A stretch of 64,000 nt of DNA from Earliella scabrosa (lineage: Eukaryota > Basidiomycota > Agaricomycetes > Polyporales > Polyporaceae): positions 124,001-188,000 of the forward strand of contig JABYQQ010000022.1 in assembly GCA_022605405.1 (NCBI GenBank), given 5' to 3'. Below are positions 15,358 to 60,269 of this stretch, one piece after another. How positions within the stretch are numbered: the first letter of the stretch is position 1; each line of letters starts with the position of its first letter. A program made the position numbers and the translations under genes. Under the pieces are notes generated by a model. That model saw only the letters and a list, made by a program, of their open reading frames with translations. It was not told the origin of the DNA and searched no databases.

Positions 15358-15495
15358 TTAAGCGATGACGCACCCACTGTGACTGCTAGAGGTACTGAGT
15401 CGCTCATGGTCGGCGAAGATCTCGTCGAACTCCTGTGTCGAAGACGAAGTGTCCTCGACGGGAAGGGGGGCAGCGATGACGAAGAACGCGTCCAT
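15358..15495 (-). CDS. mating pheromone precursor 1 (CaaX box CVIA)
   Basis: A single-exon gene of 45 aa. It begins MDAFFVIAAP, as fungal lipopeptide pheromone precursors typically begin MDxF, continues with an acidic Ser/Thr-rich middle, and ends SSHSGCVIA. The cysteine four from the end would be farnesylated, VIA removed and the cysteine methylated. An ER dipeptide (ADHERLST) is the likely internal processing site, leaving a mature peptide of about ten residues, LSTSSSHSGC. It is the outermost member of the B mating locus, 8 kb from the nearest receptor. Assignment rests on start, length, CaaX and context; fungal pheromone precursors are otherwise very variable. Confidence 0.8.
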   Translation of the reverse strand: MDAFFVIAAPLPVEDTSSSTQEFDEIFADHERLSTSSSHSGCVIA

Positions 15496-18180
15496 TGCAA
15501 GCGTCGGGTGTGTGCGTGCGAGTGCGAGTGCTAGGAGCGTCGGCTTGAGCGTGTGGCTCAGGCGCAAAGTTGGGAGCTGTCGGGATGGTGAGTTCGCTGC
15601 CCCCCTCGGGAGAAGGGACCATGTCTTTTATGAGCGTCGCGAGCGACTGAGCTGTCCGGATACGATGCGTGCGCTGCCATCGCGGAGGGTGGGCAGGCAC
15701 GCACGATGACAACACTCACAATAGCCTGGGGCAGCATGTTCCCTGGGACATTGCATCCCGGCGCGCAGGCGGGACGCTCGGCAGGGGAGCAGTCAGGTCC
15801 CGTCGCGTTCTGTGAGCGGATATAGACCTACCGTCGTCACCTCCACCACCCTACGCCCAGAACTTGCAATTGTACGTCGGTGTTGGGGGATATCTGCCTA
15901 CCGACGGCGCAGCGACATTGTCCGCGCCACCACATATCGTCTGGATAGAAGTAAAATTGCGGTCAGCATCGATGCTCGTGCATTGCCTCTCCCGTCTCGG
16001 CAGGAGTTCGCGGACGGGCTCACCTGCGTGACCGCCTTCCTCATCTACCCAGCGACGCAAATACGTCCTACCATCCCACATAATTATGCGACCCGAACGC
16101 ATGCAGGGAGAAATGTGACACGCACTATTGTCTTGCAGCAGGCCAATGCCTGATCCGGAGACATGACGCACAGTCACGGTGAAATCGAGAGGCGCGTAGT
16201 GCGATACCAGATTGCCCAGATTGAATGCAGATTTGCAACGAGGCCCGCCCACACGCCCCCACCGTGTGCGCGATTGAATGTGCATGTCGTATAGTGCTCC
16301 CCGAAGCAGTAGATGCGAAGGTCATCGAGATGAAGCCGTGGATGCCGTCGAGTCAAGCGCCTCCGCAAGACAAAAAGACAGACGCCCGGAAGTTTCGTGG
16401 TGGAATGCTACTCCTCCCTAGTCTGGAAGGAGCTCGTCGACATTGCGTGAACGAGCATCCGCTTATTGTCAAAGACGAACGCGGATTTCGAAAACGTCTG
16501 CGCTATTCTTGAACTCGTGTCGGGCCGCTGAGGTGATATCGAGCTTGCAGAGGAGTGGGGCGGCGACTCGTCGGTAGCGCGGCTCGAGCTCCGGACGACC
16601 GTGACTCAATGGTCGAGCCTGGGTCGAGCGATCTGGTGTAGTCGTGCGCAAAAAAGATGTCGAGGGACTCATTGGTAAATCACGTCCATGCAAAGCAACC
16701 TAACAACTTGTATATAGTTAGCTAAGTCGGATGAGGATGCGCCTATGCGGACATTCTACTTACATCCTGTTGGAACATGATGAAGCGCATGCCCGACACA
16801 TCCTCATGCCCAGGCTCCATTACTTTGACCAAATGGCGTAACTTCCAGTGGTACCAGGTGGGCTTCAAGTCAGTTTTGAGACGTGTACTGACCACACACT
16901 TGATAATACTGTCGGACCCTTGATTCTCGGGGGCCGCTCCGTTCGGTGGTATCGTTCAACTTGAAACAACCCCATTGCAAGTTCATGTTAATACTCAAAG
17001 AGCGATAGCAGTGCAAGCCTTGAACCGGGCTTACATCATGACTCCTCTGTGAGTCTTGAGGGCAGAGTCCGCAATGCTCAACCTGGCACGGCTACCAGTT
17101 TGACTGTTCCACTGCGAGGTAATGCAGCTCGTCAGTCACATGCTCAGCCCTCACACAGTGCCAAACGATGAGCCCAGATGCTCACTCACACTTTCTTGTT
17201 GAGTCTGGCGTGGAGGAACGCAACGGCATACTCCTTAGTACTAGTTCCACAAGAGTATTGTAAGTAAGATCCTCCAATACTGGTATCATTGCGAGGCACA
17301 CCATTTCACTCACAGCATGGTCTCTGGCGTTTGGGTCGAGGTTGCATGTCACGTAATGCTATGGGCACTGACAGAGTCCTCACCGGAAGTTGGAACAACT
17401 TCAAACCTCTTCAAACTGGCCATGGAATTCGGCTGTTCGGCCGAAAGGTACGGCAAACGCCGCCACACATAGACGCGCGCCAGAGTCGGCGAGTTACGCT
17501 ACCTTGCTGCTTGCTTTCGAACCTCTATATGTGCCTGACTATCTGGAGGCCATGTCTATCGCTACGCCTTGTGCGTAATCTTACAATTGCGAAGCGCACA
17601 CGCTCTATGTTGTCCCAGTCGAGACGGCCGTGTCTCAGTAGGATACGCGCGACGGTCAGTCTCGACACCCACGGTCCACTTTCCTGTCTGTATATCTTAC
17701 TGATATTTCAGCGATCCAGGACACCAATATAACGCTCATGGTTTCCCCTTGACACGATTTGTCTATGCAGACAAGCGGGAGGGCTTACCGCCGGCGTGTC
17801 GCGTGTCATAGAATATCGGAACTCCTATCCACAGCCGACCTTCAAGTCCCATGGTAGATATACTCACCCTGTAGCTTGGATTCGCTAATTGAGATACACC
17901 ACACGCAGGATGGAGGGATCGACGCTACATCGGGAGCATGAACTTGAAACACTTCCGCAACTGACGTAACGGATCGAGACAAAGGCAATTGAGACGCTCA
18001 CGCCCGACTCGCGACGCTGCATGGTCTGCGGGGGACTCCTCATTTTGCTCTGAACGTCCATCCGTGAGCCACACATCCCACAAGATAACAGCATGGTAAG
18101 CACTAGGTTCTTCTTCGAGCATAGTCTATGCTCCAACTCACGTCCGTCCGTATAAGTCTGCATCCTCCACCTCAATGCAA
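15496..18180. other. 2.7 kb with decayed gene fragments, no intact gene
   Basis: The minus strand keeps short protein-like pieces in different frames. One at about 16695-16470 reads ELEPRYRRVAAPLLCKLDI and KNSADVFE, resembling the start of fungal F-box/LRR-type proteins. Others lie near 16370-16225 (LDDLRIYCFGEH) and 16150-16000 (WDGRTYLRRWVDEEGG). They lie in the right order for one dead minus-strand gene, but the frames are broken and I cannot build a transcript. The rest shows nothing recognisable. Confidence 0.3.
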
Positions 18181-19980
18181 ATGGCTCAAGGCCATCTTTT
18201 GTCAACCCAGCGTGCCCTCGGATGCCATGACATCCTGGCAACTATCTTCTCCGACGTCGCCACGCTCAAGAATGGCTGGGACGCCCCCTTCCGGAAGGGT
18301 GACCTGGTCAAGCTCGCGCTTGTTTGTCGCGGGTGGCGCGTGCACACCCTCCGCCTAGTGTGGAGAGATCTGGACTCTATACTTCCTCTATGGCGTCTCC
18401 TTGCGCCGAGCTCGCTCCCTGCTCCCACGGGCGGAGCACCAACAGACGAGTATTGCGATGCCGTGGGTGATCACACTCAACTGTCGGAATGTGATAACGA
18501 GCTGAATGTCCTGCAGATCGTATCTGCTCGCTTATACTTGAATGAAACCCATCTGTCCAAGTTTCTCTGGTACGCGGGGCACGTCCAAGAACTCCATGCG
18601 CGAAACTCAAAGGACGCCACGCTGTTCCGCGCAATTCTGGAGCTAAACGGTGGAGAGCCGCTATTCCCCTCCCTCCAAACGTTGTGGTGGTCGCCATCCA
18701 CCGTATCCGATTTGTCTCTTCTCCCTCTCTTCACCTCAACGCTTCAGAACGTCATTCTCAACTATCAGACAATGGTCGCGCCCGAGCCGGAAGTTCAGGA
18801 CTCGACACTCTGTTCGATCCTCTCCCATCTGCACGATACCTCCCCAACGCTCCAATATATCTGCATCGATGCCAATTTGGAGTCGGACCCGAGCCCCGAC
18901 CTCATGCGTCAACTTCCGGCATTCAGGCACTTGCAGCGTATCTACATCACCTTCGGCATTGGCTCGTCCTGCTTCTTCGACCTCGTCTCGAATGGTTACC
19001 TTGCGCGTGCCGAGGTCGGGTATCTCTATTGGGACGGCTCTTCAGCGGCCTCTATCCCTCCCATCACAGCCCATGCGTTGAAGATGCTCATAGTGACGGG
19101 GAACTGCGAGTGCCTTACTCGACTGTTCACTGTCCTGCGCGCCCCCAACTTGGAATACGCGCATCTGGAGACGAGTGACCGCCGTGCTGCCATAATGCCA
19201 GACTACCTCTCCTGCATCAACGCATTTGCTGCCGCCGTCCCGGGCGACGCGCTCGACTGGCTGCACATGGAGCTCGGGTTCCATGACGGACCACAGTCCG
19301 ACACCCCTGTCGATCTGGCCCTGCTCGTGGAGCCCCTGCTGCGTTTCCGCAAGCTCAGTTACTTCTACTTCGCTTCCAGCCTACTCGACCTGTACGCGGA
19401 CGACAACACCTTCGTGACCATCACGCGGGCATGGAAGGAGCTCGAGCAATTCGAAATCGCCGGCCTCCTCGACTGGAGCACCGACCATGAGCACAAGGAG
19501 ATCCCAACGGCGGTCGTGCTTCACTACTTCTGGCGCCACTGCCCGCGTCTCCGCGAGCTCGCGCTCCCCCATCTCGAGTTCCAAGAGATCCTGATGGACG
19601 TCGACGAGGAGCGGCCGTCCACCCATCCTCTCAAACACTTGCGTATCGACCATGACCGGTCCTCGCGGCGGGGCAAGATCAGGCTCCCCGAGGACATGCT
19701 GGAGGAGCACGCGCACTACGTTTCTACTCTGTTCCCGGCGTTGGACGCTAAGGGCTCAATGTTCGGGTCGGAGCGCCGCGGTCGTGGTTGGGGCGGGGTG
19801 CTCGTGCACTTGGAGGAAGCTGCGAACGGCCCGATGAAGCGTTTGTCGTTTGTGGAGAGCGATAGCGACGACAGCGGAAGCAGCGACGGCTATGGAAGTT
19901 ACTCCGATGAGGAGGATACTGAGGCTGGCGACTCTGACGACTCGGAGAACGAGGACGGGGACTCTTCAGACGAGGACTGA
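18181..19980 (+). CDS. F-box-like protein, paralogue A, inside the mating locus
   Basis: Two exons, 18181-18462 and 18517-19980, give 581 aa. Residues 1-70 resemble an F-box: CHDILATIFSDV, DLVKLALVCRGWRVHTLRLVWRDL, LPLWRLLAP. The remainder is a long Leu-rich, LRR-like region (for example LPLFTSTLQNVIL, FRHLQRIYI, LRELALPHLEF), ending in a strongly acidic Asp/Glu/Ser tail. F-box proteins recruit substrates to SCF ubiquitin ligases; many fungal families are expanded and uncharacterised. The 54-nt intron has no in-frame stop and is a multiple of three, so unspliced RNA would add 18 residues. I remove it because the paralogue at 21126 has a non-multiple-of-three intron at the same place, and both exons then match in length exactly (282 and 1464 nt). 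An in-frame ATG lies two codons upstream. Confidence 0.75.
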   Translation: MAQGHLLSTQRALGCHDILATIFSDVATLKNGWDAPFRKGDLVKLALVCRGWRVHTLRLVWRDLDSILPLWRLLAPSSLPAPTGGAPTDEYCDAVGDHTQLSECDNELNVLQIVSARLYLNETHLSKFLWYAGHVQELHARNSKDATLFRAILELNGGEPLFPSLQTLWWSPSTVSDLSLLPLFTSTLQNVILNYQTMVAPEPEVQDSTLCSILSHLHDTSPTLQYICIDANLESDPSPDLMRQLPAFRHLQRIYITFGIGSSCFFDLVSNGYLARAEVGYLYWDGSSAASIPPITAHALKMLIVTGNCECLTRLFTVLRAPNLEYAHLETSDRRAAIMPDYLSCINAFAAAVPGDALDWLHMELGFHDGPQSDTPVDLALLVEPLLRFRKLSYFYFASSLLDLYADDNTFVTITRAWKELEQFEIAGLLDWSTDHEHKEIPTAVVLHYFWRHCPRLRELALPHLEFQEILMDVDEERPSTHPLKHLRIDHDRSSRRGKIRLPEDMLEEHAHYVSTLFPALDAKGSMFGSERRGRGWGGVLVHLEEAANGPMKRLSFVESDSDDSGSSDGYGSYSDEEDTEAGDSDDSENEDGDSSDED

Positions 19981-21125
19981 TCTAGCCTAGAACATGCGTA
20001 CTCCATGTATACTACAGCGTTTGTTTTTGACGAGCATAGAAGGGAGTTGTTCGGAGCGGGCGACGGAAGCAGACTTGGCAACGGATCAATGGAAGTTCGG
20101 AGCGCCCGCCGCGAGGAGGTGACGCCTGTCAGTGTCCCTACGTCGTTCGCCTCCATGACATACATCCTCGCTGTCTACCACTAATGATACTTGTCGTTAC
20201 ATTGCTCTATCTCCTATGGCTGCTAATGTAAGACACACGAAAATAGGGATGACAGTCTTGGAGAGTTGCCAGTCGACATGGTGGGAAGCAGCGACGGAAG
20301 TTGACTATGTATTGCAACCGTACGTGCAACATTTCGCTGGCTGCACGATCCTTGTGTGGAGCAGCCTCAATTTTGCGCCATGAGGTGTGCTGGTCTCTCC
20401 TCACATTTACTCTCCAGGTTCGAGATCAGCAACATTGCGGCGATGTTCGAGAAATAGGCGTACGCCGTGGAGGGGCCTGACCGAAGACGATATTCGACGA
20501 TCCCACGAACTGGCCCTCGCCTTGGATATCCATACATTCTAGGACTACGGTGAGGTCGTGACGACGAGGGAATTGGTAGAGACTGAGCTTGGTCACTTGA
20601 ACGGCTCCCGTCCTGCGGTTGTCCGTGAGTCTGTCAACTGGGTCGTCTCATTCATCTCAAAATTCGTGATTAAGAGCGGAAGCAGGATAGGTGAGTCGAA
20701 TCGGCATCGAAGAAAAGTTGTGTCACATACTGAAGTTTCACATGGCTTACCCCCGTAGCAGGGAGTCGACGCGAGAGCAATTTTTGCTGTCGCTGCTGAG
20801 CCTACTGTTCCAAGGATAGGAAGATTGTCTCATGGGTACCTTGCGAGACCCACCAGTGCCATGCGAATGGGTTGCCGGGACGTTCTACAGATCAACTTCA
20901 AGCACGACAGCGTTTGAAGTCGTCCACATTAGAAACAAAGACAATCGTAGCGCTCATGCTTTCAGGGCCTCGATGAGATTGTTTCCTTACTTCTTCCTCT
21001 TCCCCAAAACGATTGTCCTCGCGAATGTCCCGGAGTTAATCGCACGGTGAGTAATCGCTATGCGCTGTCGCTTGGATTGCGCTCACTTTGCAAGTAGCCC
21101 CAATCTCACGTCCCGCTTCGAACAA
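19981..21125. other. intergenic between the two F-box-like genes
   Basis: No supported gene. Short open frames occur at 20558-20758 and 20832-21050 without recognisable motifs. The last part should hold the promoter of the second F-box-like gene. Confidence 0.4.
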
Positions 21126-22928
21126 ATGGCTCATTGCTATGTTGGCACTCGACGCGCCCTCGAGTGCTATGACATACTAGCCACTATCTTCTCAGAGAAC
21201 GTCTCCATTCCCTTCATCGGCACCACCACGCTCTTTCGGAACAGCGACCTCGTCAAGCTCGCACGTGTTTGTCGAGGGTGGTGCGCACACGCCCTTCGCC
21301 TTTTGTGGAGGGAATTGCCCTCCACTTATCCTCTGTGGCATCTCCTCGCTCCTCCAGGTTTGCCCTCTCCGACAGGGAGCGCGCCGACTGCAGAGTATTG
21401 CGACGCTGTAAGTGGATGGTGGAGGAGTGCATCCCATACCGCGAAGAGTTGACATGTCCCACAGGTCATATCCGCTAGACTGTACGCAGATGCGGAACGT
21501 CTCAGCAGCTTCCTGTGGTACTGCGGGCATGTCCGTACTTTGGAGACACGCCATTCGACCGACGCGGTCCTCGTTCACACCCTGCTGGAGGTGACCGGAG
21601 GACGGCCGCTATTTCCATCGCTCGCAACATTGCGCTGGGGACCATCTTCCACATCGGACCTATCCGTTCTTCCTCTCTTCACGCATACGTTGCGTAAAGT
21701 CAACGTCATCATCTATCACAAAACGTTTGAGCCCATCCCGGACGTCGACGAATCGGTTGTATGGTCCATAGTAGGCCGGTTGCAAGACTCCTCCCCCAAG
21801 CTCCAGGACCTCTTCATCTATGTGTCACTGCAGTCGCCTCCTAGCACTGCGCTGATGCGTCATCTCGCGTCGTTCTCCCATCTACAGCGTCTCCAGACCA
21901 CTATCAGCATCAGCTCATCCGCACTTCTGCGCCTCATGTCCAACGGCTGCCTCGTCCGGGCTGACACCCAGTCCGTCGTTTGGGATGGCCCGCCGTCTAA
22001 AGTCGCAAGCCACTCCATTCCCGCGCACGCATTAGAAGTGCTGAAAATTGCAGGCGACAGCACGAGTCTCGCAAAGCTCTTCACGGCGATCCACGCACCA
22101 AAGCTGAACTACGCATTCATCACCGCGTCCAACAGCGGTGCCGTCGCCGAGTCTCACTGCGTTTCCTACGTGGCCGCACTCGCTGCCGCCGTCCGTTGCG
22201 ATGTCTTCAATTCCCTCCATCTGGAGTGCAGCGGACTGCGTCCCACCACCCCTATGGACCTCGCCAACCTCGTCGAACCCCTCCTCCCCTTCCGCGAGCT
22301 CACATACTTTAACTATACGTCGGACCCGCCCGACGTCTTCGCGAATGACAGCACCTGTGGGACCATCACGCGCGCGTGGCCGAACCTCAAGCACTTCACG
22401 ATCAACATGTCCCTCTGGAGCGTCGCCGGCGAGCACCCGGAGATGCCAACGGCGACTGTACTCTACTCCTTTTGGCGCCACTGCCCGCGTTTGCGCCACC
22501 TCTCCCTTCCTCACCTCCAATTCCAGGACCAGTTGGTTGATGTCGACGAGTACAGGCCCTCCACCCATCCGCTCGAGCAGCTGCAGATCGACATCACGCA
22601 GAGCTGGTCGACTGGAAAGGCGAATCTCCCGGCTGGTGTCGTTGAAGAGCATGCGCGCTACGCCTCGGGTCTATTCCCTTGTCTGAACGTGAGATGGTCG
22701 CTGTGCGGAATGGAACGTCAGGGCAGGGGCTGGGGTGGAGTATTCAGTTATCTGTGCTCTCAGAAGGGCCTGCCACGCCGCGGCCTTGAAGCATTCGGTG
22801 GCGAGCGCTCGGATGGAGACCCCGACGACTCGGAAGACGATGTCGGGTTTGAAGTTGAACTTCGCGACGGGGACGGCAACGAGGACGATGAGGATTGGGA
22901 TGATGTCGATGACTGGGAGGACGCTTAG
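21126..22928 (+). CDS. F-box-like protein, paralogue B, inside the mating locus
   Basis: Two exons, 21126-21407 and 21465-22928, give 581 aa, exactly the length of paralogue A. The 57-nt intron (GTAAGT...CCCACAG) contains an in-frame stop, so it must be spliced. The N terminus again shows an F-box-like run: ECYDILATIFSENV, DLVKLARVCRGWCAHALRLLW, YPLWHLLAP. A Leu-rich middle follows (HLASFSHLQRLQTTISI, LRHLSLPHLQF) and the protein closes with an acidic tail of Asp, Glu and Trp. Head-to-tail arrangement and equal exon sizes point to a tandem duplication, although the proteins have clearly diverged. A substrate-adaptor role in ubiquitination is inferred; no link to mating is shown by the sequence itself. 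Confidence 0.75.
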
Positions 22929-23330
22929 ATGATCAAGTGCATCTCTTGGAGGACGAGTTCATTGACATTCGCACTGTAGCTCACAAACGGGTGCAAAAAC
23001 TAGGATGTATTCCAGTTCGTAATATAGGGACGGCTGGGACAGACAAGATGTAGAGTGTATATATGAGTGTAGATGGGAGACGTCGCATTTCATAGCTACA
23101 AGAATCAGCGAAGGAGACACCGGGACTAGGTGGGGGGCACATCTAGTGCGAATAAGGATACAGTGCAAGACGAGGCCAGGTGAGGCGGGGCGCAGTGAGC
23201 GGCGGAGGTATAGCTAGTGGTACAGCAACGTGAAACGAGAAGCGTGCAGCGTACGAGATCGTCGATGATGAGGAAGAGACTGTAAAGATGACAGGGTGAA
23301 CGAGCTGGAGGGAGATGAAGTGACAGCGTA

Positions 23331-23412
23331 TCAAAACGTTGTCGATTCAGTGTGGACCATGATCGAGATCGACCCGTCGGACGCCTTGCGAGCTGGCGGC
23401 GGCGGCGCAAGC
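23331..23412 (-). pseudogene. displaced former C-terminal codons of receptor 1
   Basis: Directly after the present stop the minus strand stays open in another frame, from MWPPPSSRLAP to a stop at 23331, ending SISIMVHTESTTF. With only one copy of the 43 bp repeat the receptor frame would run into this stretch, so it is probably the ancestral tail, now out of frame. Confidence 0.55.
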
Positions 23413-25121
23413 CTAGAGGAAGGCGGCGGCCACATGACGGGTGGGGAGAACGGCCGGTGATATGAGGGAACGACCGCTGACGGGTGGGGAGAACGGCCGG
23501 TGATATGAGGGAACGACCGCTGACGGGGGCGGACGGAGGGGCCCATCGGGCGTAGGCGGCGAGCTTGGGGGGCATTCGTCGCCAATGATGATGATCCCGT
23601 CCTCCGAGTCTGCGTAGTCGGTCGAGAAGTTGCTTTGCGTCGCTGGCGACTTCGCCTCGGTGTTGCCCTTCTCGAGGTCGAGGTTCCCGAAGCTGCCCGC
23701 GAGTGAGGGCGAAAGGGACTCAGGGCGCTTACGAGGAGCGTATGGCCCGGAGGAAGGCGGAGAGTAGGGAGGCAGAGCCTGGAAGTCCGGGGAGGAAGGT
23801 GAGGGCTTGCCATAATGGAAGCTGCGCACGTAAGACCACAACAAATCAGCACCCGTTGCAGACAAACTGGGTAGCTAGTACTCACTTCGTCCCGGAAAGT
23901 TGGCCGAACTGCTTCTTCTCGCTCGCGGGCTTGGGGCGAATGCCGAGCAAACCCATGACCGTCCAGAAGGCGGCCTTGTAGTGCTTCCGCGACTCCTCCG
24001 CGAAGCCGAACAGCGCGAAGAAGAGGAACGCTGCAAAGACGTACACCCACTGGCCCATCACGACTGAGATGAGGAACGGCCGCTGAGAACGCCAGAAGAT
24101 TGCAGGAATCATCTCGACGTGTGAGAAGTCGTAGTGCGTATCCTCCCAGGAGACCCATGGGGCCAGGATGACGCCGGCGGTATTGATGTAGATGCTGTAC
24201 GCGCCGATGGGAACCGTGCAGATCATCTCCGAAATGGAGAGAAGCATGAGACGGAAGTAACGACTGATAGTCATGCCGCTGCCATTGGAGTTGATAACTT
24301 CTCGGAACTGAATTCGATGTCTCCAGAAGCCGAGGAGCGTCAAGACTAGCGATGCGGTCAGCATTGTATACCAGAGTAACGCGTTGTCGCGGAGACTCAC
24401 ATGCGTAGACAAAAGAGACGCAGCCAATGAGGGGAGGCCACATGAACACGAGAGGATACGCAGGAGGTGTGTTGTAAATCTCGGGAACGCAGCCGACGCC
24501 TTCAAGAATGTTGAAGCGGTGACCCTGCACGACGTAGTCTAGATTGGCCGTGCGTTCAAGAAAGGCGGGTCACGAAAGATGGATACTCAATGAACTCACG
24601 CAATATCATGACGAGAACAGGGATTCCCACAGAGATAGCCAGGTCGATGATCATCGCACGGCGTTTCTACATGGTAGGAGGTGAGCACGATACGGCGTGC
24701 ACATCGTCGAACAAGGGGCGAACGCACCTCATCCCGTGTCACTGACACGGAGCGTACGGACGTGATTTTGTAGAGGCGTCTGTTGATACAGAGCGTCGAA
24801 GCGGGGATGCCAACTCCAGCACCGATGAGGAATTTCGTTGCTGTCGGTCATGCAAGACGTCAGCTCATCCAGCTTGCACAAGAACACTACACTGCTCAGA
24901 GACTCACATATATCACACCAAACAGGCGCAATGCTTAACGCGGTGTCTCTCCATACAATGGAGTTAACAAATTGGATCATGCAGGCGAACGAAGCCCAGA
25001 TCATGTAGACGCAAGTGCCAGCGTTCCAAGCTTGCAGATGCCATGGCAAGGGAACGAGTGCGATGATGAAGCCGAGGAAAGCGAAGACGGGAAGGAGGGG
25101 GTATGTAGGGTCGGCGTACAT
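23413..25121 (-). CDS. STE3.1: STE3-type pheromone receptor 1 (seven-TM GPCR)
   Basis: Six exons on the minus strand: 25121-24908, 24840-24728, 24666-24600, 24538-24401, 24345-23886 and 23821-23413, giving 466 aa. The start MYADPTYPLLPVFAF, LVPLPWHLQAWNAGTC and the loop motif VVQGHRFNILEGVGC are hallmarks of basidiomycete STE3 receptors. Further segments include TISRYFRLMLLSISEM and FFALFGFAEESRKHY before a cytoplasmic tail. The receptor would sit in the plasma membrane, bind a farnesylated pheromone and activate a heterotrimeric G protein. Intron positions match receptors 2 and 3 exactly (exon 2 is 113 nt, exon 3 67 nt, exon 4 138 nt). The last coding exon contains a 43 bp tandem duplication that shifts the frame and replaces the original C terminus. 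Confidence 0.9.
23435..23520 (-). repeat. two tandem copies of a 43 bp unit in receptor 1
   Basis: Copies at 23435-23477 and 23478-23520 appear identical, followed by the first bases of the unit again. Since 43 is not a multiple of three, the two copies are read in different frames: AVVPSYHRPFSPPV in the first and GRSLISPAVLPTRH in the second. Confidence 0.9.
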
Positions 25122-30657: not shown

Positions 30658-32544
30658 TCACGAGGTAACATGATGAAGATTGAACGGCGTCGGCGGCGCA
30701 GACGACTGCTCGACCTCAAGGGAGACGAACGACGGCACGCGCGCACCGTACGCAGCCTCGATGTCGGTAAACGACAGCGACACCGCCGACTGGTCCGACT
30801 CGTGGCTGAACATCGAGTCCGTCGGCGAGTGCGCCGGCTCGGTCGGCGACAGCGGCGAGATCGGCGACGAGGGCGTCGATTGCGAGCTCGAATGAGACTG
30901 GGAGTGCGACAGCGAGCGCGAGCGCGAGTGCGAGGGTGAGACTGAGGAGGGGAACGTGGGCGAGGCGGGGAACGGCGGGAGCGGAGGGATCGAGTCGGTG
31001 AGGGAGACCGAGACGGGCCCGTCGAATGTCCGGCGCCTGCTGAAGTGGTCGTAAATGGGCGTGGGCGAGCTGGGCGTAGACGAGCCAGCGGCGAGGGAAG
31101 GAGTACTCTCCAGCCCGCGGTAGGAGGTAAATGGCGTTTCCTTATCGATGGGCAGGGAAGAGATTGTGGAAGTGAAAGACGCTGACGGATTCATGCGGGG
31201 AGGCTTCGGGTAGTCGTAAGGCGGAAGGGGCTCTGAGGCCGGCGCGAAGTGAGGTTGCGAAGACATTTTCGCCGAGTCGCGCACGAAGACCGGCAGGCAT
31301 CTAGACGGAGTGTCAGAAACTGATTGGACGAGGTTGACAGACAAGACATACCCAATTGGCTGCATGCCGCCCTTCTCGGTCTTGGACTTGGGCTTGACGC
31401 CGAACTTGCCCATGACGAACCAGTACGCTTTGCGATAGTTACGACGAGCCTCGCTGGCCACGCCGAACCAGAGGAAGAAGATGATCGCACACGCAGGGGA
31501 CAGCCAGCGATTGAGCTCGTTGACGGTGACCGACTGCGGGTTCGCGCGCCATCTGATCGCTGGGATGTGCTGGACGCGTCCGAAGTCGAAGTGCGTATCA
31601 TCCCAGCTACGCCATGGTCCAAGGGGTTGCGTCGTGACGTTAAGATAGATGCCATAGGCTGAGATCGGGATGATCAGGAGCAGTGAGGACGTCGTGAGGG
31701 CCATGAGTCTGAAGTAGCGGCTGAGCGTGAGGGAGGACTTCTTCGATGAAAGGAATTCGTTAAATTGTGCTCTACGTCTGTTGAACTCGAGCAAGCAGAG
31801 CACTGGTGTGAGACCTATGTAAGCGCACGAGACTGACAACTGGACAAAGATCGACGTACAGCAGTATACGGAGGCGATCAACCCGAAAACCAGGGGCCAC
31901 CAATTGACGAGAAAGTACGTGAGGAGAGTGTTGTAGAGCGCTGGGAAGCAGCCTAGTTGTTCAAGAACATTGTAGCGGTGGCCCTGTACGACATAGGCTG
32001 AAAGACAGCGTCAGTAGAATAAGAACCTCGGGTGCTAACACACTTACACAATACAACGACTATTACAGGTATTACCAGGCATATGAGCGTATCGATCATA
32101 ACAATGCGCCGCTTCTGCGTAGGAGAGATGTGTGAGGGTCCTCATCGCGCAGAGGCCATTGCACCCACCTCCGCTCTCGTGATCATGACCGCTTGTACGC
32201 GAGCAATACTGTATAGTCTTTGGTTGATGCACATCGAGGCAGCAGGGATGCCAACAGATGCCGCGATAGTGAGGCGAGTGGCTTCAAGACATCAGACAGA
32301 GGACGAAGTGGAGAGAAAGCTTTCATGACTCACAAATCTCGCACCAAGCAGGGGCATGGTCGATGGCGTCCTTAGCCCAGACGACCGTGTTGACGAACTG
32401 ATTGAGACACGAGAGAGAAGCCCACATCATGTAGTAACATGTCGCAGAGTTCCAGGCCTCTATGTGCCATGGAAGGGGTATGAGGGCGAGGATAAAACCG
32501 AGAAAGGCAAAGATGGGGAATAGAGGATATGTGGGATCGACCAT
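30658..32544 (-). CDS. STE3.2: STE3-type pheromone receptor 2 (seven-TM GPCR)
   Basis: Six exons on the minus strand: 32544-32334, 32281-32169, 32114-32048, 31997-31860, 31814-31352 and 31300-30658, giving 544 aa, the longest of the four receptors. It starts MVDPTYPLFPIFAFLGF and shows LIPLPWHIEAWNSATCYYM, VVQGHRYNVLEQLGC, TLSRYFRLMALTTS and a seventh membrane segment around CAIIFFLWFGVASEA. About 215 C-terminal residues form a Ser/Pro-rich cytoplasmic tail with repeated SHSRS/SLSHSQS, a likely target of phosphorylation. Exons 2 to 4 have the same lengths as in receptors 1 and 3. Introns are all GT-AG and frame-consistent. Function as for receptor 1, with a different expected ligand. Confidence 0.9.
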
Positions 32545-33374
32545 GGCGACTTGGAAGAGAGAGACGGAAGGGGAGACAGAGAGGAAAGACGAGAGGATAG
32601 AGCCTTGACAGAGGAGCACTGAGGCGCCATATTCGCTATATCTTCGCAAGAGGTCTTTGTCTGGTGGCGCGCTGTCGAGGGAGAGATGTAGACGCAGCGA
32701 GTGAACAAAGGATCGATTGCGAGAGGGTGAGAGTTGTGAGACATTGACCTGACACTGACGGGCGCTTCCACTGTCTAGCCACGTGGGTGTTGCTTGCGTC
32801 TATTTGGCTCAGTTCACAGGCCCAAATATCACCAAACTCGAACTTCTCACCGACACTCACTGAGTCAGTACTCTCACTGCTCAGTGCACGTTTCGTATTG
32901 GCACTTTAATTTCGAGCCCAATCTCCAATGTGACGCACTCTCCGGACAACAAGCATCTTTGGCGTGGACCTAGTACGCGGTCTGGCAGGTCTCCCTAGAC
33001 CCGCCGGACCCTCAATAACACCGCATGCGGAGCGCGAATATGAGCGGCTCATGCGCTGGTACAAGCGTCATCATTCGGTGCACAATAGTAATATGGGATC
33101 TTGGCCACCAGAGAGTGCTGTGAACTCTTAAGTCGACCTGACTTTCCCCCACGCCCTCATGCTCTAACCATTGTTGTTCTGCAGTACCCATCGCACAAGT
33201 CTTCGCTCTTCGAGTCAACTTCCCTTGCCCATGTCCGGCCTATTCTGTCGCCATTAGTACAATAGCGATATTCATTTTCTCTTCAACCCTGTTGCATTCC
33301 GTCTCGTGCACACCACACATCTGTCGCAGCCACACTCGTTTCACCGTTATCCGGCGTCTCCAACGTCTGCCCCA
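32545..33374. other. divergent promoter region of receptor 2 and precursor 4
   Basis: The two start codons are 830 bp apart and point away from each other. An ACAAAG motif lies at 32705-32710, about 160 bp upstream of the receptor start. No gene is seen. Confidence 0.45.
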
Positions 33375-33572
33375 ATGGACGACTTCTTCACCTTCACCAT
33401 CACATCAGAGCCGTCAGAGCCTCACTCCGCTCTCGACACTGGGCTCTGCGCGTCACATCCACCCGACATTTCCTCCAGAGAGCGCACCGCCATGCTCGCG
33501 CACCTGTCATCCTCCACTCCTGTTAACGAGGATCGCAACGACGTCTACCAGGCGTATTGCATCATCGCCTAA
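33375..33572 (+). CDS. mating pheromone precursor 4 (CaaX box CIIA)
   Basis: A single-exon gene of 65 aa. It begins MDDFFTFTITSEPSEP and ends VYQAYCIIA. PVNED precedes the predicted mature peptide RNDVYQAYC, the same processing context as precursor 3. It lies between receptors 2 and 3, divergent from receptor 2. An upstream in-frame ATG at 33306 would add 23 residues and is disfavoured because MDDF is the family start. Confidence 0.85.
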   Translation: MDDFFTFTITSEPSEPHSALDTGLCASHPPDISSRERTAMLAHLSSSTPVNEDRNDVYQAYCIIA

Positions 33573-34633
33573 TAATGCCACCTGCGCCAGTCGTGCTCGT
33601 GAGTTCTCTCCGCACTTTCTTCGAGTCGCCTCTAACGCCAGGACCTCTAGCTACACTCTGGCACCTACGACGATCTCGTCGTGCTCCATGTCCATTTCCC
33701 TCGGTGCCTCGAAATCCTATTAATCCGGCCTGCTCCGCTTGGTGACTCCTGGCACGTTGCGCGATGAAGGAGACTGGCCACGCCCCGCCGTCCGTACTCG
33801 CCATGTCTATCATCTTCCTCTTCTCTCCCTCTCCTCGTCCCTCATTATCCCCCACTTCGACTACCCGGACTGTAGTCGCCCTTATTTATCCCGTCTCCAC
33901 GCTGTTCTCCTGCACACGCTCTTTGCCTCTTCTTCGTTGACCTTGTTCATATTGTCATATTTATTGCCGGCGCCGACGCAGACCGTTCTCGCTCGTAGTG
34001 TAGTAATCTTATACGTACTTATTGTAGCTTTAGCGTTCGGGATCGGTCATGTTTGGGTTGCTGTGCTTGTCGCTGTATCTGCTGGGTATACCAATGTATC
34101 ACTACTCTGCCTTTCTTGCCCTTTCAACTCGAACAGTGCGATCGCCTACGACTATGGATCGTGAGTCGCACCTATCATGCCGACGCACGTCACTAAGAAC
34201 TGCCCGCTGCCTCGACGCGGTGGGGTTGTGATGACAGTGCGTGATATGACTCGCAGACTACTCATCCTCAGGGTGCCCTACGACAACAAGACACGACGAC
34301 GTTTCACGTGATGAAACTTCGCGAACCCCCCGAGTGCTGCGTGCTAAGAAGTACTGCAGCGACCGGTGACGAACACACTCGAGCAAAGCTTATTGAGACC
34401 AGGAGTCAGGGACGATGTAATCGTCCGGCAACCAGCCGCACGACGACTGTAGCGATCCACACCAAGGTAGCGGACGCAATCGACAAGAATCGTTCTGCCA
34501 TTCAATGGATCGTAACTAGGGATACAACGAGGGTATGTCATGTCGAAGAAGATAAGATAGATGCTGGGGATTGTAAGCGGACGTATGCGTAGGTTATGGA
34601 CGACGAAAAGGCTACAGAACATGATTGTCGGGT
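33573..34633. other. intergenic between precursor 4 and receptor 3
   Basis: No supported gene. A hydrophobic open frame at 33739-34164 has no known motif and looks like T-rich 3' flanking sequence rather than a membrane protein. Confidence 0.35.
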
Positions 34634-36183
34634 CTAGTGGTGATGTGATGCAGAGCCAGGAGTAGAGGGAAGGCTGGCGAAAGACCCCCGGTCAGTCGTC
34701 GTCGAGCTTGAGGTGTAAGGCGTCACGGGAGTGGAGGGGGTGGATGGCGTGGTCGGCGCCTTCGAAAAGTCCACTTCAAAGGTGGGATTGGAGGGAAGGT
34801 CAAGGTCCCCGATCGAGTAGACGGACTTCTTGCCGTCGATGCCGTACAGCTGCGCTGCAGCAGGCGGCTTGGGGTAGGCGACGTAAGGCGGGAGGAACTC
34901 CTGACTGGGGAGACGTTGTGTAGGCAACGTTCTGGGCGGGATGACGTCAGATGTCTCGAAGAATTGCGTTGCCAACAAAATGAGGCTTACTGTTTTGAGC
35001 CCGCCAGACGCGAGGCGGTCCGCAGGCGGAGGAACGCGAAGCGGTCGGAGATGAACTGGAGCACCATCTTGTAGTGGCGCTGCGCCTCCTCGGCGAACCC
35101 GAAGAAGCCGAAGAACACGAATGCGCAGAGAGGGAGGATCCAGCGGCTCATCTCGAGGGGGATCAGGAGATTCAGATTTGCCCGCCAGATCACAGCGGGG
35201 TATTGCCCGACGCGAGAGAAGTTGTAGTGCGTGTCGTCCCACCCGAGCCAAGGGTGAAGGGCGCCGTCGATGGCGTTCGAGTAGAGCTGGTAGATGCCGA
35301 GTGGGGTCGTGAAGATGATCTCCGTGATGGAGAGGAGCATGAGGCGGTAGTAGCGACTGACGGTGAGGGCGCTGCCGGTCTGGATGAATTCGCGGAATTG
35401 CTTGTGACGCTTGACAAGAGAGATGAGAGAAAGTACTGAAGAAGGCGTCAATACGAGCGAGACGATGAGAGAGAAGAGTGCACGAACCGCAATACACAGA
35501 GGAGACTAGCCCGATGATGGTAGGCCACATGTACACTAGGAAGTACGTCGGAAGAGTGTTGTATATGGCTGGATAGCAGCCAAGGTTCTCAAAAATGTTG
35601 AAGCGGTGACCTTGCACAATATACGCTGGAGGACGAGCCATGAGGGTATGCGAAGGCAGGCACCTACAGGCCACTCACAGAACACCATACAGATAATGGG
35701 GAATAGGACGCATAGGAGCGAGTCCACGAGGATAACGCGACGTTTCTATCAAGAACATCGTCAGCAAGTGAAGAGAAGCGAGACAGCTCAAGCTCACCTG
35801 TGCGCGGGTAGTGAGAACGTTCGAAACTCGTGAGATGTTGTAGAGCCGGCGACTGATACACAGCGACGCCATCGGGATGCCGACGGACTGGCCAACGATG
35901 ATACGGGTAGCTGAGATAGAGCACGATGAGGACATGGTAGAAAAGTCTGAAGTCGACGTCACGTACAAATATCGCACCATATTGGAGCAACATTGAGAAC
36001 GTTGTTGTGCCAGACGATCGAGTTGACGAACTCATTGAGACATCCAAGCGCCGTCCAAATCATGTAGTAGCACGTCCCCGAGTTCCATGCTTGAAGGTGC
36101 CATGGGAGAGGAACAAGGACGAGAATAAAGCCAAGGAAGGAAACGATGGGGTATGCAGGCCAGGTAGGATCGGTGGACATCAT
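34634..36183 (-). CDS. STE3.3: STE3-type pheromone receptor 3 (seven-TM GPCR)
   Basis: Six exons on the minus strand: 36183-35967, 35910-35798, 35745-35679, 35625-35488, 35435-34991 and 34931-34634, giving 425 aa. Landmarks are MMSTDPTWPAYPIVSFLGF, LVPLPWHLQAWNSGTCYYM, IVQGHRFNIFENLGC, TVSRYYRLMLLSITEI and FFGFFGFAEEAQRHY. The tail carries LPSQEFLPPYVAYPKPP and ends in a Ser/Thr-rich run and HHH. For the last intron the acceptor at 34932 (CCCAG) gives a 59-nt intron and a continuous frame; another acceptor 27 bases on also keeps frame. A second ATG follows the first immediately. It is closest in layout to receptor 1. Confidence 0.88.
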
Positions 36184-36746
36184 GTTGGCGAGAACTTGAA
36201 GCGCGTCCGGGACGGATGGAGAGGGATGGGGCAAAGGGCGGGTAGTGTTAAGCCCAGAGACATCATGTTATGAGGTGGAATGGCGTTCATTCAGGTCGAA
36301 CAATGAGTCTTTCAGACAATGGAGACCAAGTCGATTGAGCAGGAAGCCGAGGCTGATCAGAGTCGCGTCAGCGCAACGCTGGCGCAACGCAGCGACAGCA
36401 CCCACCAGCGTAACGGCGCTTGCTGTGACTTCATTGTGACAGCTCATTGTGACATGTGACTGCGTCGGCCCGGTAAAGGCCGGTACCTCCGCCCAGACAT
36501 TTCAGTCGCGCTCGTCTACTCTACCGGCCACCAACGTGGACTTGGAACACCTGCCATCTGACCGACTATCTCATGCGTACCTCGCACAGCCGATTGTGCC
36601 ACGCTTCCAGAGTTTGGGTCTCAGCGGAAGAAACAAAAGCATCCCTTGCTTTCTTATACCTCTTCCTCTCCTCGGCCACATGTCATTGAAGACATTCCGC
36701 TCTCGAGTCCGTCCCCGCGCGTATCCATTGCAACCTGTCGCCATCC
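36184..36746. other. divergent promoter region of receptor 3 and precursor 5
   Basis: About 560 bp between divergent starts. A GCAAAGGG motif lies at 36231-36238 near the receptor and an ACAAAAGC motif at about 36632 near the precursor. No gene is seen. Confidence 0.4.
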
Positions 36747-36893
36747 ATGGACATCTTCGACGCCTTCCTTATAGCTCCTCCCATACCTGGGACCGATCCT
36801 TCGTCCGAAACATCGTCTCCCGACGCCGAAGTACCACTTGACTTCGAACACGGCCGCTCCGGCGGCCCGACCTTCTACTGTGTCATCGTATGA
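36747..36893 (+). CDS. mating pheromone precursor 5 (CaaX box CVIV)
   Basis: A single-exon gene of 48 aa. It reads MDIFDAFLIAPPIPG, then an acidic Ser/Pro middle, and ends SGGPTFYCVIV. The CaaX box ends in Val, unlike the Ala of the other five; Val is still compatible with farnesylation or could favour a different prenyltransferase preference. An EH dipeptide before GRSGG is the likely processing site, giving the mature peptide GRSGGPTFYC. The gene lies 560 bp from receptor 3 and divergent from it. Confidence 0.85.
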   Translation: MDIFDAFLIAPPIPGTDPSSETSSPDAEVPLDFEHGRSGGPTFYCVIV

Positions 36894-38541
36894 GCCCAAC
36901 GGCTGGCTCAACAGCAAGACTACCCGCTGTGTGTTGCGTGAGTGAAATGAAATCTGTCACTTCTGCAAGAGTAGCGCACTGACTCGAGACGTGTCATCGC
37001 AGAGGGTTGTATGTTTATTGCTAAAGTTATTGGGCTTCCGTTTGTGATTTGTATCATATCCTGAGGATGTGAGTATCGTCGTATTGATAGTGACCGCATC
37101 ATGCTGACTCGGCTTGCTAGGTCACCTCCTCTCTTGCATCCCCACGGTCCTTCTTGTGTCAGTGTCACGAACCTCAAACGTTCCTTCCCTGTATCGCCTG
37201 TATCATAGTCGCGCTAGACGTGTGAGTATCTTATGCTCGACACGCTATGCGTCCTGTACCTGACTTCAGTGTCTCTCAAGGTCACACAGCCGCTCTCTAT
37301 GTTGGTAATTTATCGGTCTTGCTGTCTTGTAGCCTCCTTGTCTTGAATGCATCACGCGATCTTCGAGTTGTTGCACGGGCGCGCATATGTTGTGACATTG
37401 CCTGTGCCTCGAGGTTGCAGTCTGAGTGCGGGATGTGGTTGTGATCATGTTCCGAGGATGCGGGTCGTTGCGCTGGCTCGTTGGAGATGTCGCCTTCATT
37501 GCATCGTCGGGGCTTCGGCGACCGGATTATTCGTTGACATTGCCGCACAAGATGCGTATTGATCCTTCCGACTTGCCTCCGACTGTCCAAACACGCTGGG
37601 GTGGTTTGTCGTGTCTGACCGTTGGGATCTTACTCCGAGTCGGCGTCGAGTGGTGGTCGTTGCAGTAGGCATAGCCTCATGCCGCAATGACCATGTAGCA
37701 TATCCGGCCATGACACACAGCAGAAGGGAGTGGAGTGAGAGCCCATGAGGGCGATGTTTGACAACTTCGGTCAGCTTCCAGGTGGTAGCGGGTGTCCGTT
37801 GTTGGTTTGGCAGACTTGAGGCAACAGTGCGGATGTGCGCGTGATGAAGAGACGAACGAGTGGATGATGGCCAAGGACGAACCAGCCGTCGTATATGCTG
37901 GTGCAGTTCTGATCGGAGTTTCGGTTCCGTAAGAAATGAGCTCACCAATTGCTCACCAACGTGACTGCCTGCAATCGCCTTTGATTGTGCCAACATCACA
38001 GCGCGCCTCGAAGGCTCTAAACGACAGGATCGAGGAGAATAGTGATACATTACGCAAGCGCACGAAGACAACCAAACGACAGCTAATGATACAACCGATC
38101 CACGACCAGTATAGAGACAATAGTTACGGATAAATACTACACTAAGAAGGGAGGCAGTATGCATTGACGCTGGTGGTCCAAGAACGGAGAGAAGGGAGGG
38201 AATGGGTGGGGTAGCGCAGAGAAGAAAGAGCGAGCACAAGGCGAGGGGGTAGGTGTAGAGAGGGCGACGATGGGATGTGTCGTCACGAAGAGGAGCGGGG
38301 CCAAGCGGTGCAGCCCAATGAATACCCAAGATGCCCATCAATACGAAGAAGGAGGGGTGAAGGAGAGATGACGGAAAGAGCGGGGACGAAACGAGCGGCG
38401 GATTGTGTGTACGAACGACAGGATGATACACTGGAAACACGGGAGGAATTAGTATGCTGCGACGACGCTCGAGAGATGAGGCACAGGCTTACGGGAGTTC
38501 ACCTCGTAAGGGGAGGATGATACGCCGATGCGCGTATGGTG
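36894..38541. other. intergenic between precursors 5 and 6
   Basis: No supported gene. The long minus-strand open frame 37496-38440 is low-complexity, lacks a domain and covers what should be the 3' flanks of two convergent precursor genes. Confidence 0.4.
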
Positions 38542-38739
38542 TTATGCGATGACGCAGTACGTCGCGGTGTACTGTGTTGGAGGACGGTCCGCGTTGACAG
38601 GGACACCGGAGGCTTCCGAGGGAGGTATGTCCGCGGGGGCGCAGAGCGCGGGGTGCAACGACTCGGATGCAAAGGAGTCGAAGAGAGCGGAGTCGGGCGT
38701 GCCCGACATCGAAAGGCTGATAGTGGCGAATTCGTCCAT
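38542..38739 (-). CDS. mating pheromone precursor 6 (CaaX box CVIA)
   Basis: A single-exon gene of 65 aa. It begins MDEFATISLSMSGTP and ends YTATYCVIA. PVNADRPP corresponds to the PVNED motif of precursors 3 and 4 with Ala for Glu; a mature peptide RPPTQYTATYC is likely. The MDEFATISLS start is close to MDDFATLSLS of precursor 2, suggesting common descent. It is the last precursor, 1 kb from receptor 4. Confidence 0.85.
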   Translation of the reverse strand: MDEFATISLSMSGTPDSALFDSFASESLHPALCAPADIPPSEASGVPVNADRPPTQYTATYCVIA

Positions 38740-39770
38740 GGGGATGGAGGTAGCGCGAGAGGTGATGTGTGCGGGGAGGTAGCGAGCGACGATAACGAGC
38801 GTTCAGCAGCTAATAGCTGGCGTTGAGCAGTCGAGCGAGCGAGCGAGTGCGATAGTGCGACGGGGATGTGCAGCTTGCGATCGAGAGGTAGCGGAGACGA
38901 GCACTAACCAGTGATCGACTTGACTGCCCCCCACATGCTATTGTTGCCAGCAGGAACAATCCACCAGCAAGCACCAGAGTGACGCGGCATGAGAAGGTTC
39001 GGAAAGTACAAGCGGGAACGACTGCGCCGCCTTTGTTTGCTATGCGGGTCCGACAATGAGTGGCGCGTGGCCGGTGGGTAAGGAAGGCCTCGACCTTCGA
39101 CGCTAGACGGACGCAGTGAGCCAAGCTCGGACCAGAGCAGAAACCGACGCCGGACGGAAACACGATGCAAGGGCAAATCTTCATGCACATGTTGTGCGCC
39201 ACTCGGTCGAAAGCACCTTGAGCACATTTTTGGGGGACGTCGTAACGGTGAAAGGGGGTGGAAAACAAACAAAGACAAACTTTCCTGTGCGTATTTGGCT
39301 CTGTTTGCATTTATGGCGCGCTTAGCTGAGCAGTCTGGCCCTGTGTCGGACAAGGCTCATGCACAACTCGTCAGAAAGTCTATGTATCAGATATCTCATG
39401 CGCTACTGACTCTGGGTGGACGACGGACACTGAGACGATGTACTATCGACGTAGTATCGTATTCGGTACACAGATATTTCCCTCAATGTATGTGCAACCA
39501 GCTACCAAGGGCCATGCATACAACGTATTCGCAAGTGTTTCGAGATTCATGATCACGCTATTTCTGTGGGCGTCGCAAAATTATCATTGCTTCTACCAGG
39601 AAGACCATCGTGACAGTAGAAAGGATACAGAAATGAAGTGCTAGCAGATGAGGTATATGAAAGTATGGCTACAGAGCATTGGGGGTGATCGTATCGTAGG
39701 GGCCGTGTAGAGCGATCATATCAGATCATGAGGGGACTAGGAGTCCGGTTGGGAAGCGGTGATAGCAGAG
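38740..39770. other. intergenic between precursor 6 and receptor 4
   Basis: No supported gene. The minus-strand frame 38810-39310 has no family features. The part next to 38740 should be the promoter of precursor 6. Confidence 0.4.
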
Positions 39771-41338
39771 TTAGATAGCGTGGGGTTCGTCGTTCATGCA
39801 CTCGTCAATGCGTGCCTCGGAAGAGGGGTCGATGTCGGTGGGGACGGCTTGCACAGAAGGCGCGGAGGAACGAGGGCGAGAAGGCGGCCGCGAGGCTGCA
39901 TAGTATGAAGGAAGGTCGTCGTCGCTGCCGTAAACGATGATGGGACCCCCGACGAGGACGCCATCCTCCTTCGAGTGCTCGTGGAGGTGCTTCTTGTCGA
40001 TGTGGTCGACTGGTGTCTCGAGGCTGCCGGGCGTGGTCGGGCTCAGCTCGCCACTGAAGGATATGTCGATGGTCGGTAGCGACGCGATGGACAGGTGCTG
40101 ATCGAGACCAAACGTCGATCTACAACAAACAGCGTCAGTAAGGATCACGAGGAATGCGGAGGATGCTATCGCGACATACCGAGGAGGTGGTGTAGGAAGG
40201 AACGCAGGGACGAACCCAACCGAGGAGATCTTCTGTAGCCCTTGCGACTTCGGCTTCTGCCTGAAGACGTTCCGCCAGACCCACCGCGCCCACGAACGAT
40301 ACTCGTTCGTCGCTTCCTGTCCGAACGCGAAGAAGGCGCAGAAGATGTACGCGGAGATGGGCGCGATCCACCAGCAGGCGTAGTAGAACGTGTAGATGAA
40401 CGGAGGGAGGAAACGGACTGCGAACGTGTCGATGCGGCTGAAGTTCCAGTGGACGTCGTCCCAGTTCGTCCAGGGACGCATGTTCCAGAGGACAGAGAAG
40501 CCGAGCGTCGCAGAGACGGCAGCTGCGCTCGAGAACATCTCGAAGAGCGCGAGCAGCATGAGACGCATGTAGCGGGAGGTGTTGAGCCCGGAGTTGGAGT
40601 TTTCGAGGTGCTTGGCAAAGGTGACCCGCCGGCGCACGAAGTGTGACAGAGCGAGAGCTAGAAAGACAGCGAGATGCATGGGTATGTGGGAGCGAAACGA
40701 TATTGAGAGACACGTACCCGCAAATATAAGGGCGACAAAGGACATTATGAGGGAAGGAACCCACATGAGGAAGATGGCGGGGATAGAGACGTAGACGGAC
40801 GGCCGACATCCAAACTGCTCGATGATGTCGAAGCGGTGTCCTTGAACGATGTAGTCTGGGAAGCATGAATATGGGGGAAGGGAACACAAGTAGGAAGAAC
40901 GACTCACGAAGACCCATCCAGATCATTGGAACAAGATAGCACAAAACACTTTCAAAGATCTGTCTCCGCCGCTTTTGCGCCAAGGTGGTGAGGGCCTGAC
41001 GGACGGAGGCGACTTGCTCGAGGTGAATGCACACACACATGCATGCAGCTGGGAGAGCGATGTTTGCACCAATAAGTATCTTGGTAGCTAGAGGAGGGTC
41101 AGCCTGGTTCGTGACTTAAACCAGCGAGCAGACACGTACTGATATCACACCAGACGATAGCAACCTTTGCAACGGTATGGCTCCAGATGATAGAATCAAC
41201 GGCGTATATGACATTGACGGCAAACAACCAGACGATCATGGCCAGGGTGGCGACGTTTCCAGCGCGCCAGTGCCATGGCGTAGGGATGAGGACGAGGATG
41301 GAGGCGAGGATGGAGGCGATGGGGAGTTCGTGGCGCAT
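39771..41338 (-). CDS. STE3.4: STE3-type pheromone receptor 4, divergent member
   Basis: Five exons on the minus strand: 41338-41140, 41087-40908, 40855-40718, 40657-40180 and 40119-39771, giving 447 aa. It starts MRHELPIASILASILVLIP and keeps PTPWHWRAGNVATL, IVQGHRFDIIEQFGC, NTSRYMRLMLLALFEM and a seventh segment before FGQEATNEYRSW. It differs from the other three: the N terminus lacks the DPTYP/DPTWP start, PLPWH is PTPWH, and exon 2 is 180 nt, exactly the sum of exons 2 and 3 (113 + 67) elsewhere, so one intron has been lost. The tail ends SEARIDECMNDEPHAI. This may be a receptor of a separate subfamily, possibly a non-mating-specific one; sequence alone cannot decide. Confidence 0.85.
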
Positions 41339-53109: not shown

Positions 53110-53122
53110 CTTCTGCGTCATC

Positions 53123-60259: not shown

Positions 60260-60269
60260 CTTCCGCCTC

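Follow-up and report, generated by a model that had tools for sequence, protein, structure and literature searches.

Pheromone receptor and precursor genes in the window

Here we describe a stretch of 64,000 nucleotides from the genome of Earliella scabrosa, a tropical bracket fungus classified in Polyporaceae, Polyporales (positions 124001-188000 of contig C22, in an assembly of 51.67 Mb and 48 contigs; hereafter the window). The part between 23.4 and 41.3 kb is very probably the pheromone/receptor (P/R; also B or MATB) locus of one haploid nucleus, with four receptors and five pheromone precursors. The first-pass annotation of this DNA had reported four STE3-type receptor genes on one strand and six precursors with MDxF starts and CxIA/V ends, and both counts were borne out: a search of the species' own genome with the PF02076 profile, together with spliced gene models, located four STE3 genes on the minus strand of the window, and the open reading frames (ORFs) of the form MDxF...CxI[A/V] within 15358-41338 number six. 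The genes of the array are the following (positions without a contig name are those of the window; aa, amino acids).

R1: 23413..25121, minus strand, STE3 receptor; 6 exons, 466 aa; PF02076 E 5e-112, profile 1-292
P26139: 26139..26327, minus strand, precursor; mature end ..NGSYSWC, CTIA; PF08015 E 2.8e-8
P28015: 28015..28143, plus strand, precursor; ..PVNEDAPSRAGVYC, CVIA; PF08015 E 0.14, under cut-off
R2: 30658..32544, minus strand, STE3 receptor; 5 exons, 557 aa (tail modelled as one exon); PF02076 E 2e-106, profile 1-292
P33375: 33375..33572, plus strand, precursor; ..PVNEDRNDVYQAYC, CIIA; PF08015 E 0.045, under cut-off
R3: 34634..36180, minus strand, STE3 receptor; 6 exons, 424 aa; PF02076 E 2e-111, profile 1-292
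P36747: 36747..36893, plus strand, precursor; ..EHGRSGGPTFYC, CVIV; PF08015 E 4e-6
P38542: 38542..38739, minus strand, precursor; ..NADRPPTQYTATYC, CVIA; PF08015 E 1.3e-7
R4: 39771..41338, minus strand, STE3 receptor of the second (MRHELP) class; 4 exons in the model; PF02076 E 2e-89, profile 2-292, computed from the first 311 aa only

The PF02076 domain (292 positions) is nearly full-length in all four receptors, which assigns them to the STE3 class. Because a crude hydropathy scan (7, 6, 4 and 9 segments counted for R1, R2, R3 and R4) missed seven segments in some receptors, we base their seven-helix nature on the Pfam matches. The model of R3 is identical, letter for letter, to a deposited E. 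scabrosa protein of 424 aa. Pairwise identity is 51-54% among R1, R2 and R3 and 35-39% between R4 and those three. The proposal that the receptors share intron positions holds for R1-R3, with four introns common in position and phase (exon lengths 211-214/113/67/138), but not for R4, from which the second of these introns is absent (its 180-base exon equals 113+67); the 180-base exon is likewise present in the models of R6 and R7, two STE3 genes outside the window.

The precursors were counted by a fixed MDxF...CaaX motif with a length rule, and against the six matches in the window there was none in any of 100 dinucleotide shuffles; the same rule gave no match in 140 kb of C22 outside the window and none in 40 kb of C20. 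In all five precursors of the array the CaaX cysteine follows an aromatic residue (WC or YC), and four of the five have a PVNE or PVNA motif. Genome searches with P36747 returned only P36747, and with P38542 itself and one weak match (E 0.27), while the PF08015 profile (E up to 10) matched four of the six window precursors and two genes on C1. Receptors and precursors are intermixed, as had been noted, although they do not strictly alternate, P26139 adjoining P28015 and P36747 adjoining P38542. Two receptor-precursor pairs are divergent, R2/P33375 (831 bp apart) and R3/P36747 (567 bp apart). The pheromone-response box of Ustilago, ACAAAGGGA, had no match in the window (0.25 expected).

Neighbouring genes

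To the left of the array we found the following.

3030..3878, plus strand, ribosomal S19-type gene (RSM19-like MATB flank), exon-level ORF; PF00203 E 3e-15
7248..9494, plus strand, PAK-type kinase (CLA4/STE20-like); PF00786 E 6e-8, PF00069 E 2e-27
15358..15495, minus strand, P15358, pheromone-like precursor of a dispersed GCVIA class, a 45-aa MDxF..CVIA ORF; PF08015 E 0.007, under cut-off
18175..19980, plus strand, F-box-like ORF between P15358 and R1; PF12937 E 6e-4, under its cut-off
21540..22928, plus strand, part-paralog sharing a 178-nt repeat (73%) with the ORF at 18175; no Pfam match

Read along the plus strand, the order is S19, PAK, P15358, F-box-like ORF, part-paralog, R1, P26139, P28015, R2, P33375, R3, P36747, P38542, R4 and three genes with HET (heterokaryon incompatibility) domains, which occupy the plus strand at 46043-61055, to the right of the locus. 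The p21-Rho-binding and kinase domains of the PAK gene lie in successive ORFs that we treated as one gene; together with the S19 domain they provide the conserved MATB flank, PAK and RSM19 being two of the five flank genes named in Trichaptum (PMC8970355; this and the other papers given by PMC number are cited from excerpts). DML1, RIC1 and SNF2 did not appear among the ORFs scanned, although no search by name was made. The PAK neighbour is supportive rather than universal, because in Flammulina the PAK gene CLA4 is unlinked to the P/R locus. With STE3 receptors clustered among CaaX precursors and with PAK and S19 genes beside them, the earlier identification of a P/R (B) locus of the Agaricomycete type was upheld.

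Receptor phylogeny and trans-specific polymorphism

Three receptor homology searches, whose queries excluded R1 and R2, yielded 360 proteins (the best 120 of 816, of 379 and of 894 matches). The tree holds 73 selected rows: six receptors of E. scabrosa itself and named receptors of Polyporales and reference species, R7 being represented by its deposited protein. R2 and R3 fell in a group of 26 rows with receptors of Coprinopsis, Schizophyllum and Pleurotus (support 88/91, not starred), and R4 in one of 20 rows with second-class receptors of Coprinopsis and Pleurotus (98/95). A single clade of R1-R3 was rejected by the approximately unbiased (AU) test on this tree.

The first-pass annotation had put forward trans-specific polymorphism as the mark of genuine specificity genes, and comparison with deposited relatives gave the expected pattern for two of the four receptors, R3 and R4. 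The clade of nine that contains R4 unites proteins of Fomes, Pilatotrama, Coriolopsis and three Trametes with two from Dichomitus squalens (100/100), while a third D. squalens protein groups with Ganoderma, T. punicea and T. cingulata (100/99); uniting the three D. squalens rows of the R4 class in one clade was rejected (AU p 7.7e-5). Likewise, R3 groups with T. versicolor FP-101664, T. gibbosa, Cubamyces, Daedaleopsis and Epithele (100/100), and a second T. versicolor assembly has a protein that is paired with one of T. cubensis (100/100); holding the R3-class rows of the two T. versicolor assemblies together was rejected (AU p 9.5e-63). In contrast, in the non-mating clade, which includes R6 and the deposited C20 receptor, seven Trametes, Cubamyces and Lenzites rows form one group (100/99). 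The split lineages of R3 and R4, which are putative alleles, follow the pattern that old alleles common across species would give.

Several points weigh against this reading of the array as a P/R (B) mating-type locus. The analysis is based on a single haplotype, known from genome sequence alone. Half of the six precursors score under the PF08015 cut-off, two of them in the array (P28015 and P33375, with P15358 outside it), and P26139, P36747 and P38542 score above. The groups submitted to the AU test were picked after inspection of the tree, and paralogy instead of allelism could account for the split lineages, each search having contributed its best 120 matches, mostly from unknown strains. 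Among the R2 rows the branching comes close to the species tree. The long branch of R1 was placed, weakly, next to the non-mating clade (80/79, the program itself warning of the branch length), and the eight of the 360 fetched proteins that score best against R1, from searches not aimed at it, are just 50-56% identical to it. The last exon of R1 also carries a perfect tandem duplication of 43 bp at 23435-23520 (the repeat array continues to 23527); it puts the end of the cytoplasmic tail into another frame and is either a mutation of the strain or an assembly error. Finally, two of the four clustered receptors of Trichaptum are non-mating (PMC8970355).

We regard it as quite possible, though somewhat less likely than not, that only some of the receptors, namely R3 and R4, are specificity genes and that R1, R2 or both are non-mating receptors comparable to STE3.1 and STE3.3 of Trichaptum. 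The example of that genus, where non-mating receptors can make up half of the cluster, leaves the same possibility for R1 and R2, and for R1 above all; R1 is a long branch next to the non-mating clade, and the clade of R2 is one lineage, with T. punicea, T. versicolor and Lenzites together (100/93). Against this, R1 and R2 have all four introns in common with R3 and not with R6, the identity of R1 is 52-54% with R2 and R3 against 46% with R6, both genes adjoin precursors of the aromatic-cysteine type, and the two R2-clade receptors of Ganoderma adspersum occupy different places in the tree, as polymorphism would give.

It is unlikely that intact genes have lost their part in determining mating type, as in the bipolar species Phanerochaete chrysosporium and Agaricus bisporus. 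From gene content alone the two readings look alike, since P. chrysosporium keeps three clustered receptors (PMC4101180), and both the single haplotype and the duplication in the tail of R1 would agree with such a loss. However, the P/R genes of A. bisporus are scattered and undifferentiated (PMC8305134), whereas the array of E. scabrosa is compact, and the relatives of R3 and R4 fall into split lineages within a species or genus, which counts against a loss if these lineages are indeed alleles.

P15358 and a dispersed class of pheromone-like genes

All six precursors had been assigned to one specificity array of 26 kb. Five of them belong there, and the sixth, P15358, belongs to a class of pheromone-like genes dispersed in the genome. 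Its C-terminal end is SSSSHSGCVIA, unlike the aromatic-cysteine ends of the array, and it aligns with four tandem genes on C1 at 59, 44, 33 and 57% identity. A genome search with one of the C1 genes, to which P15358 is 58% identical in that search, returned nine places at E < 0.005, and two further C1 genes from an ORF scan bring these to eleven: C1 (four, two of them from the search), C5, C4, C20 (two) and C22 (three). The members on C22 are P15358 and two that lie past the PAK gene, outside the window but close to its left edge. Seven of the eleven places were read, those on C5, C4 and C20 being left unread, and in all seven glycine precedes the CaaX cysteine; in four of them the mature end is HSGC. 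The five aligned members have GCVIA at the end of the precursor, and the two others GCVIV and GCIIA. The class thus combines copies dispersed away from receptors with mature peptides rich in glycine and serine; P15358 itself lies 7.9 kb from R1, its nearest receptor. Around R5, R6 and R7, the STE3 genes outside the window, ORFs were scanned over 204 kb of C22 and 40 kb of C20, and no MDxF-CaaX gene came to light beyond those named here.

The tandem group of four genes on C1 occupies 1411417-1416083, all on the minus strand, and the PF02076 genome search gave no STE3 match on that contig. The stretch C22:122400-123900, to the left of the window, holds the other two C22 genes of the class.

Similar peptides are known elsewhere. 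Pycnoporus cinnabarinus, also of the Polyporales, has seven precursors of 39-65 aa, three of them distinct and of B type and four alike and presumed non-mating (PMC4101180), the same split into two classes as in E. scabrosa. The pheromone-like peptides of Agaricus, Coprinopsis and Laccaria are glycine-rich and not mating-type specific, and those of C. cinerea and L. bicolor share the consensus tail ..AYC, as opposed to ..GC in all seven genes read here (PMC8305134). Because of its likeness to the dispersed class and of these non-mating peptides in other species, we exclude P15358 from the specificity array: it is probably not a specificity gene. That it is a true sixth mating pheromone in a locus of 26 kb is very unlikely, because, despite lying 7.9 kb from R1 on the same contig and having an MDxF start, a charged pair, a CVIA end and a consensus 5' splice site behind its stop, it aligns with the C1 genes rather than with the five of the array, its class has two members beyond the PAK gene, and an F-box-like ORF and its part-paralog intervene before R1.

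A predicted splice site behind the CaaX stop codon

Examination of the sequence behind the precursor genes identified a consensus 5' splice site in the first 61 bases after the CaaX codons in 11 of 12 readable precursors, compared with 187/1908 control stops (9.8%; binomial p ~9e-11, counting as independent genes that are paralogs). The 12 precursors are part of 16, the four unread dispersed places being left out. Donors were those of our own fixed list of seven, set after the pattern had been seen by eye, and the control stops were the ends of any ATG-ORF of 38-120 codons rather than of known genes, with the precursors' own stops removed. Both classes contribute to this count (array genes 5/5; glycine-cysteine class 6/7). 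In the next stretch of the same length the count falls to 0/12 and in the following one it is 2/12 (controls 11% and 13%), and a donor followed by a branch-like motif and an acceptor is found in 10/12 precursors against 4.3% of controls, the precursors' own stops being included in the controls of these three comparisons. None of the four receptor stops (R1-R4) has such a donor. The presence of the donor in all five precursors of the array fits transcribed genes. Introns in the 3' untranslated region are recorded in three expressed pheromone-like genes of Agaricus (PMC8305134), and the pattern reported here would extend this detail, now to array genes too.

In the two dispersed genes at C22:122626 and C22:123451 the CaaX codons are directly followed by TG and the donor GTGCGT, so that an intron at this point would possibly split the stop codon; by the branch-plus-acceptor rule no full intron was found at C22:122626. 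The pattern CxI[A/V]-TG-GTRNGT has three matches in the genome (~0.3 expected by chance with equal base frequencies; none in the reversed control), these two and one on C2 (622489-622508, minus strand, surroundings unread), which is possibly another split-stop precursor. We consider it rather unlikely that an intron at or just behind the stop is a general and old feature of the lipopeptide pheromone genes of mushrooms, mating-type ones included. If it were true, split-stop genes would yield the CaaX end only from spliced transcripts and splicing would gate pheromone production.

Published precursors with a CaaX motif plus tryptophan, such as Flammulina FvPP1, which is reported to end in CaaX-Trp, might be split stops read from genomic DNA, because a GTGAGT or GTAAGT donor preceded by TG would be translated as tryptophan and stop. 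FvPP1 would in that case have TGGTGAGT or TGGTAAGT at its CaaX-W codon. Transcript data in a 2016 paper support the tryptophan, however, and speak against a split stop in FvPP1. Of all the results presented here, this splice pattern at the 3' ends most deserves a follow-up.

Other STE3 genes and the homeodomain locus

The window had been thought to hold the complete complement of genes of the haplotype, a claim that is not supported in that form, as the genome contains at least three more STE3 genes and the GCVIA class has ten other places. These STE3 genes and the homeodomain (HD) locus are the following.

R5: C22:239174-240229, plus strand, very divergent receptor-like gene, on a long branch with the R4 class; ~75 kb from the locus
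R6: C22:294 kb, STE3 gene of the non-mating clade
R7: C20:113665-114778, minus strand, non-mating-type STE3 gene; model with one in-frame stop, deposited protein of 288 aa
HD (A) locus: C3:25857-30061, MIP (plus strand), homeodomain gene (minus strand) and Mating_N/HD1 gene (plus strand)

The eight best-scoring relatives of R5 among the 360 fetched proteins are 36-38% identical to it. The order of the HD genes is that of three polypores, in which HD1 is distal to mip and runs in the same direction (PMC4101180). A Homeobox_KN match on C36 was discarded as a candidate A locus; C36 has no MIP match, and the group of Mating_N, MIP and homeodomain genes is on C3. The PF12737 profile matched nothing anywhere, controls included, and is hence uninformative.

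The genome has a single Mating_N (HD1) match over the cut-off, which argues for a haploid assembly, with the HD and P/R genes on different contigs. Because the HD genes are only ~26-30 kb from the end of C3, C3 and C22, which bears the P/R genes, could be neighbours and the A and B loci linked. The telomere motif was found in one place only, on C8. The assembly thereby agrees with a tetrapolar as well as with a bipolar system.

Significance of the array

Placing these results into the P/R system of one haploid nucleus, each small precursor would be cut at a charged pair and secreted after farnesylation of its CaaX cysteine, the mature product being a lipopeptide of ~8-11 residues in which the cysteine follows an aromatic residue. 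The receptors, R3 and R4 at least, with R2 probably and R1 possibly among them, would ignore the peptides of their own haplotype and answer those of other haplotypes, which would start the B pathway (nuclear migration and clamp fusion). Judging from position only, the likely units are R1 with P26139 and P28015, R2 with P33375, R3 with P36747 and R4 with P38542, and P15358 would be a neighbour from the dispersed, glycine- and serine-rich pheromone-like family, putatively non-mating.

The closest known systems share much of this organization. The MATB region of Trichaptum (30.3 kb) also has four clustered STE3 receptors and CaaX precursors beside PAK and RSM19, and its specificity receptors show trans-species polymorphism; it has two precursors as opposed to five in E. 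scabrosa, and only 2 of its 4 receptors were judged specificity genes (PMC8970355). The B3 locus of Pleurotus eryngii combines four receptors, one of them termed receptor-like by the authors, with four precursors, E. scabrosa having one precursor more, and its function was analysed by transformation, whereas the locus of E. scabrosa is known from its sequence (PMC4136793).

The P/R locus described here is hence of a known kind, in a species for which our literature search, judged from its listings, recognised no paper on mating genes. Pheromone genes are often missed by annotation, and about half of those in a Rhizopogon paper were found by pattern matching only (PMC5473757). The aromatic-cysteine end of the array genes, the glycine-cysteine end of the dispersed ones and the consensus splice site behind the stop may serve as filters for finding such genes. 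For E. scabrosa, the result is one P/R haplotype with gene models, in which the likely specificity genes are parted from a look-alike and the genes of the array become precise targets for strain typing.

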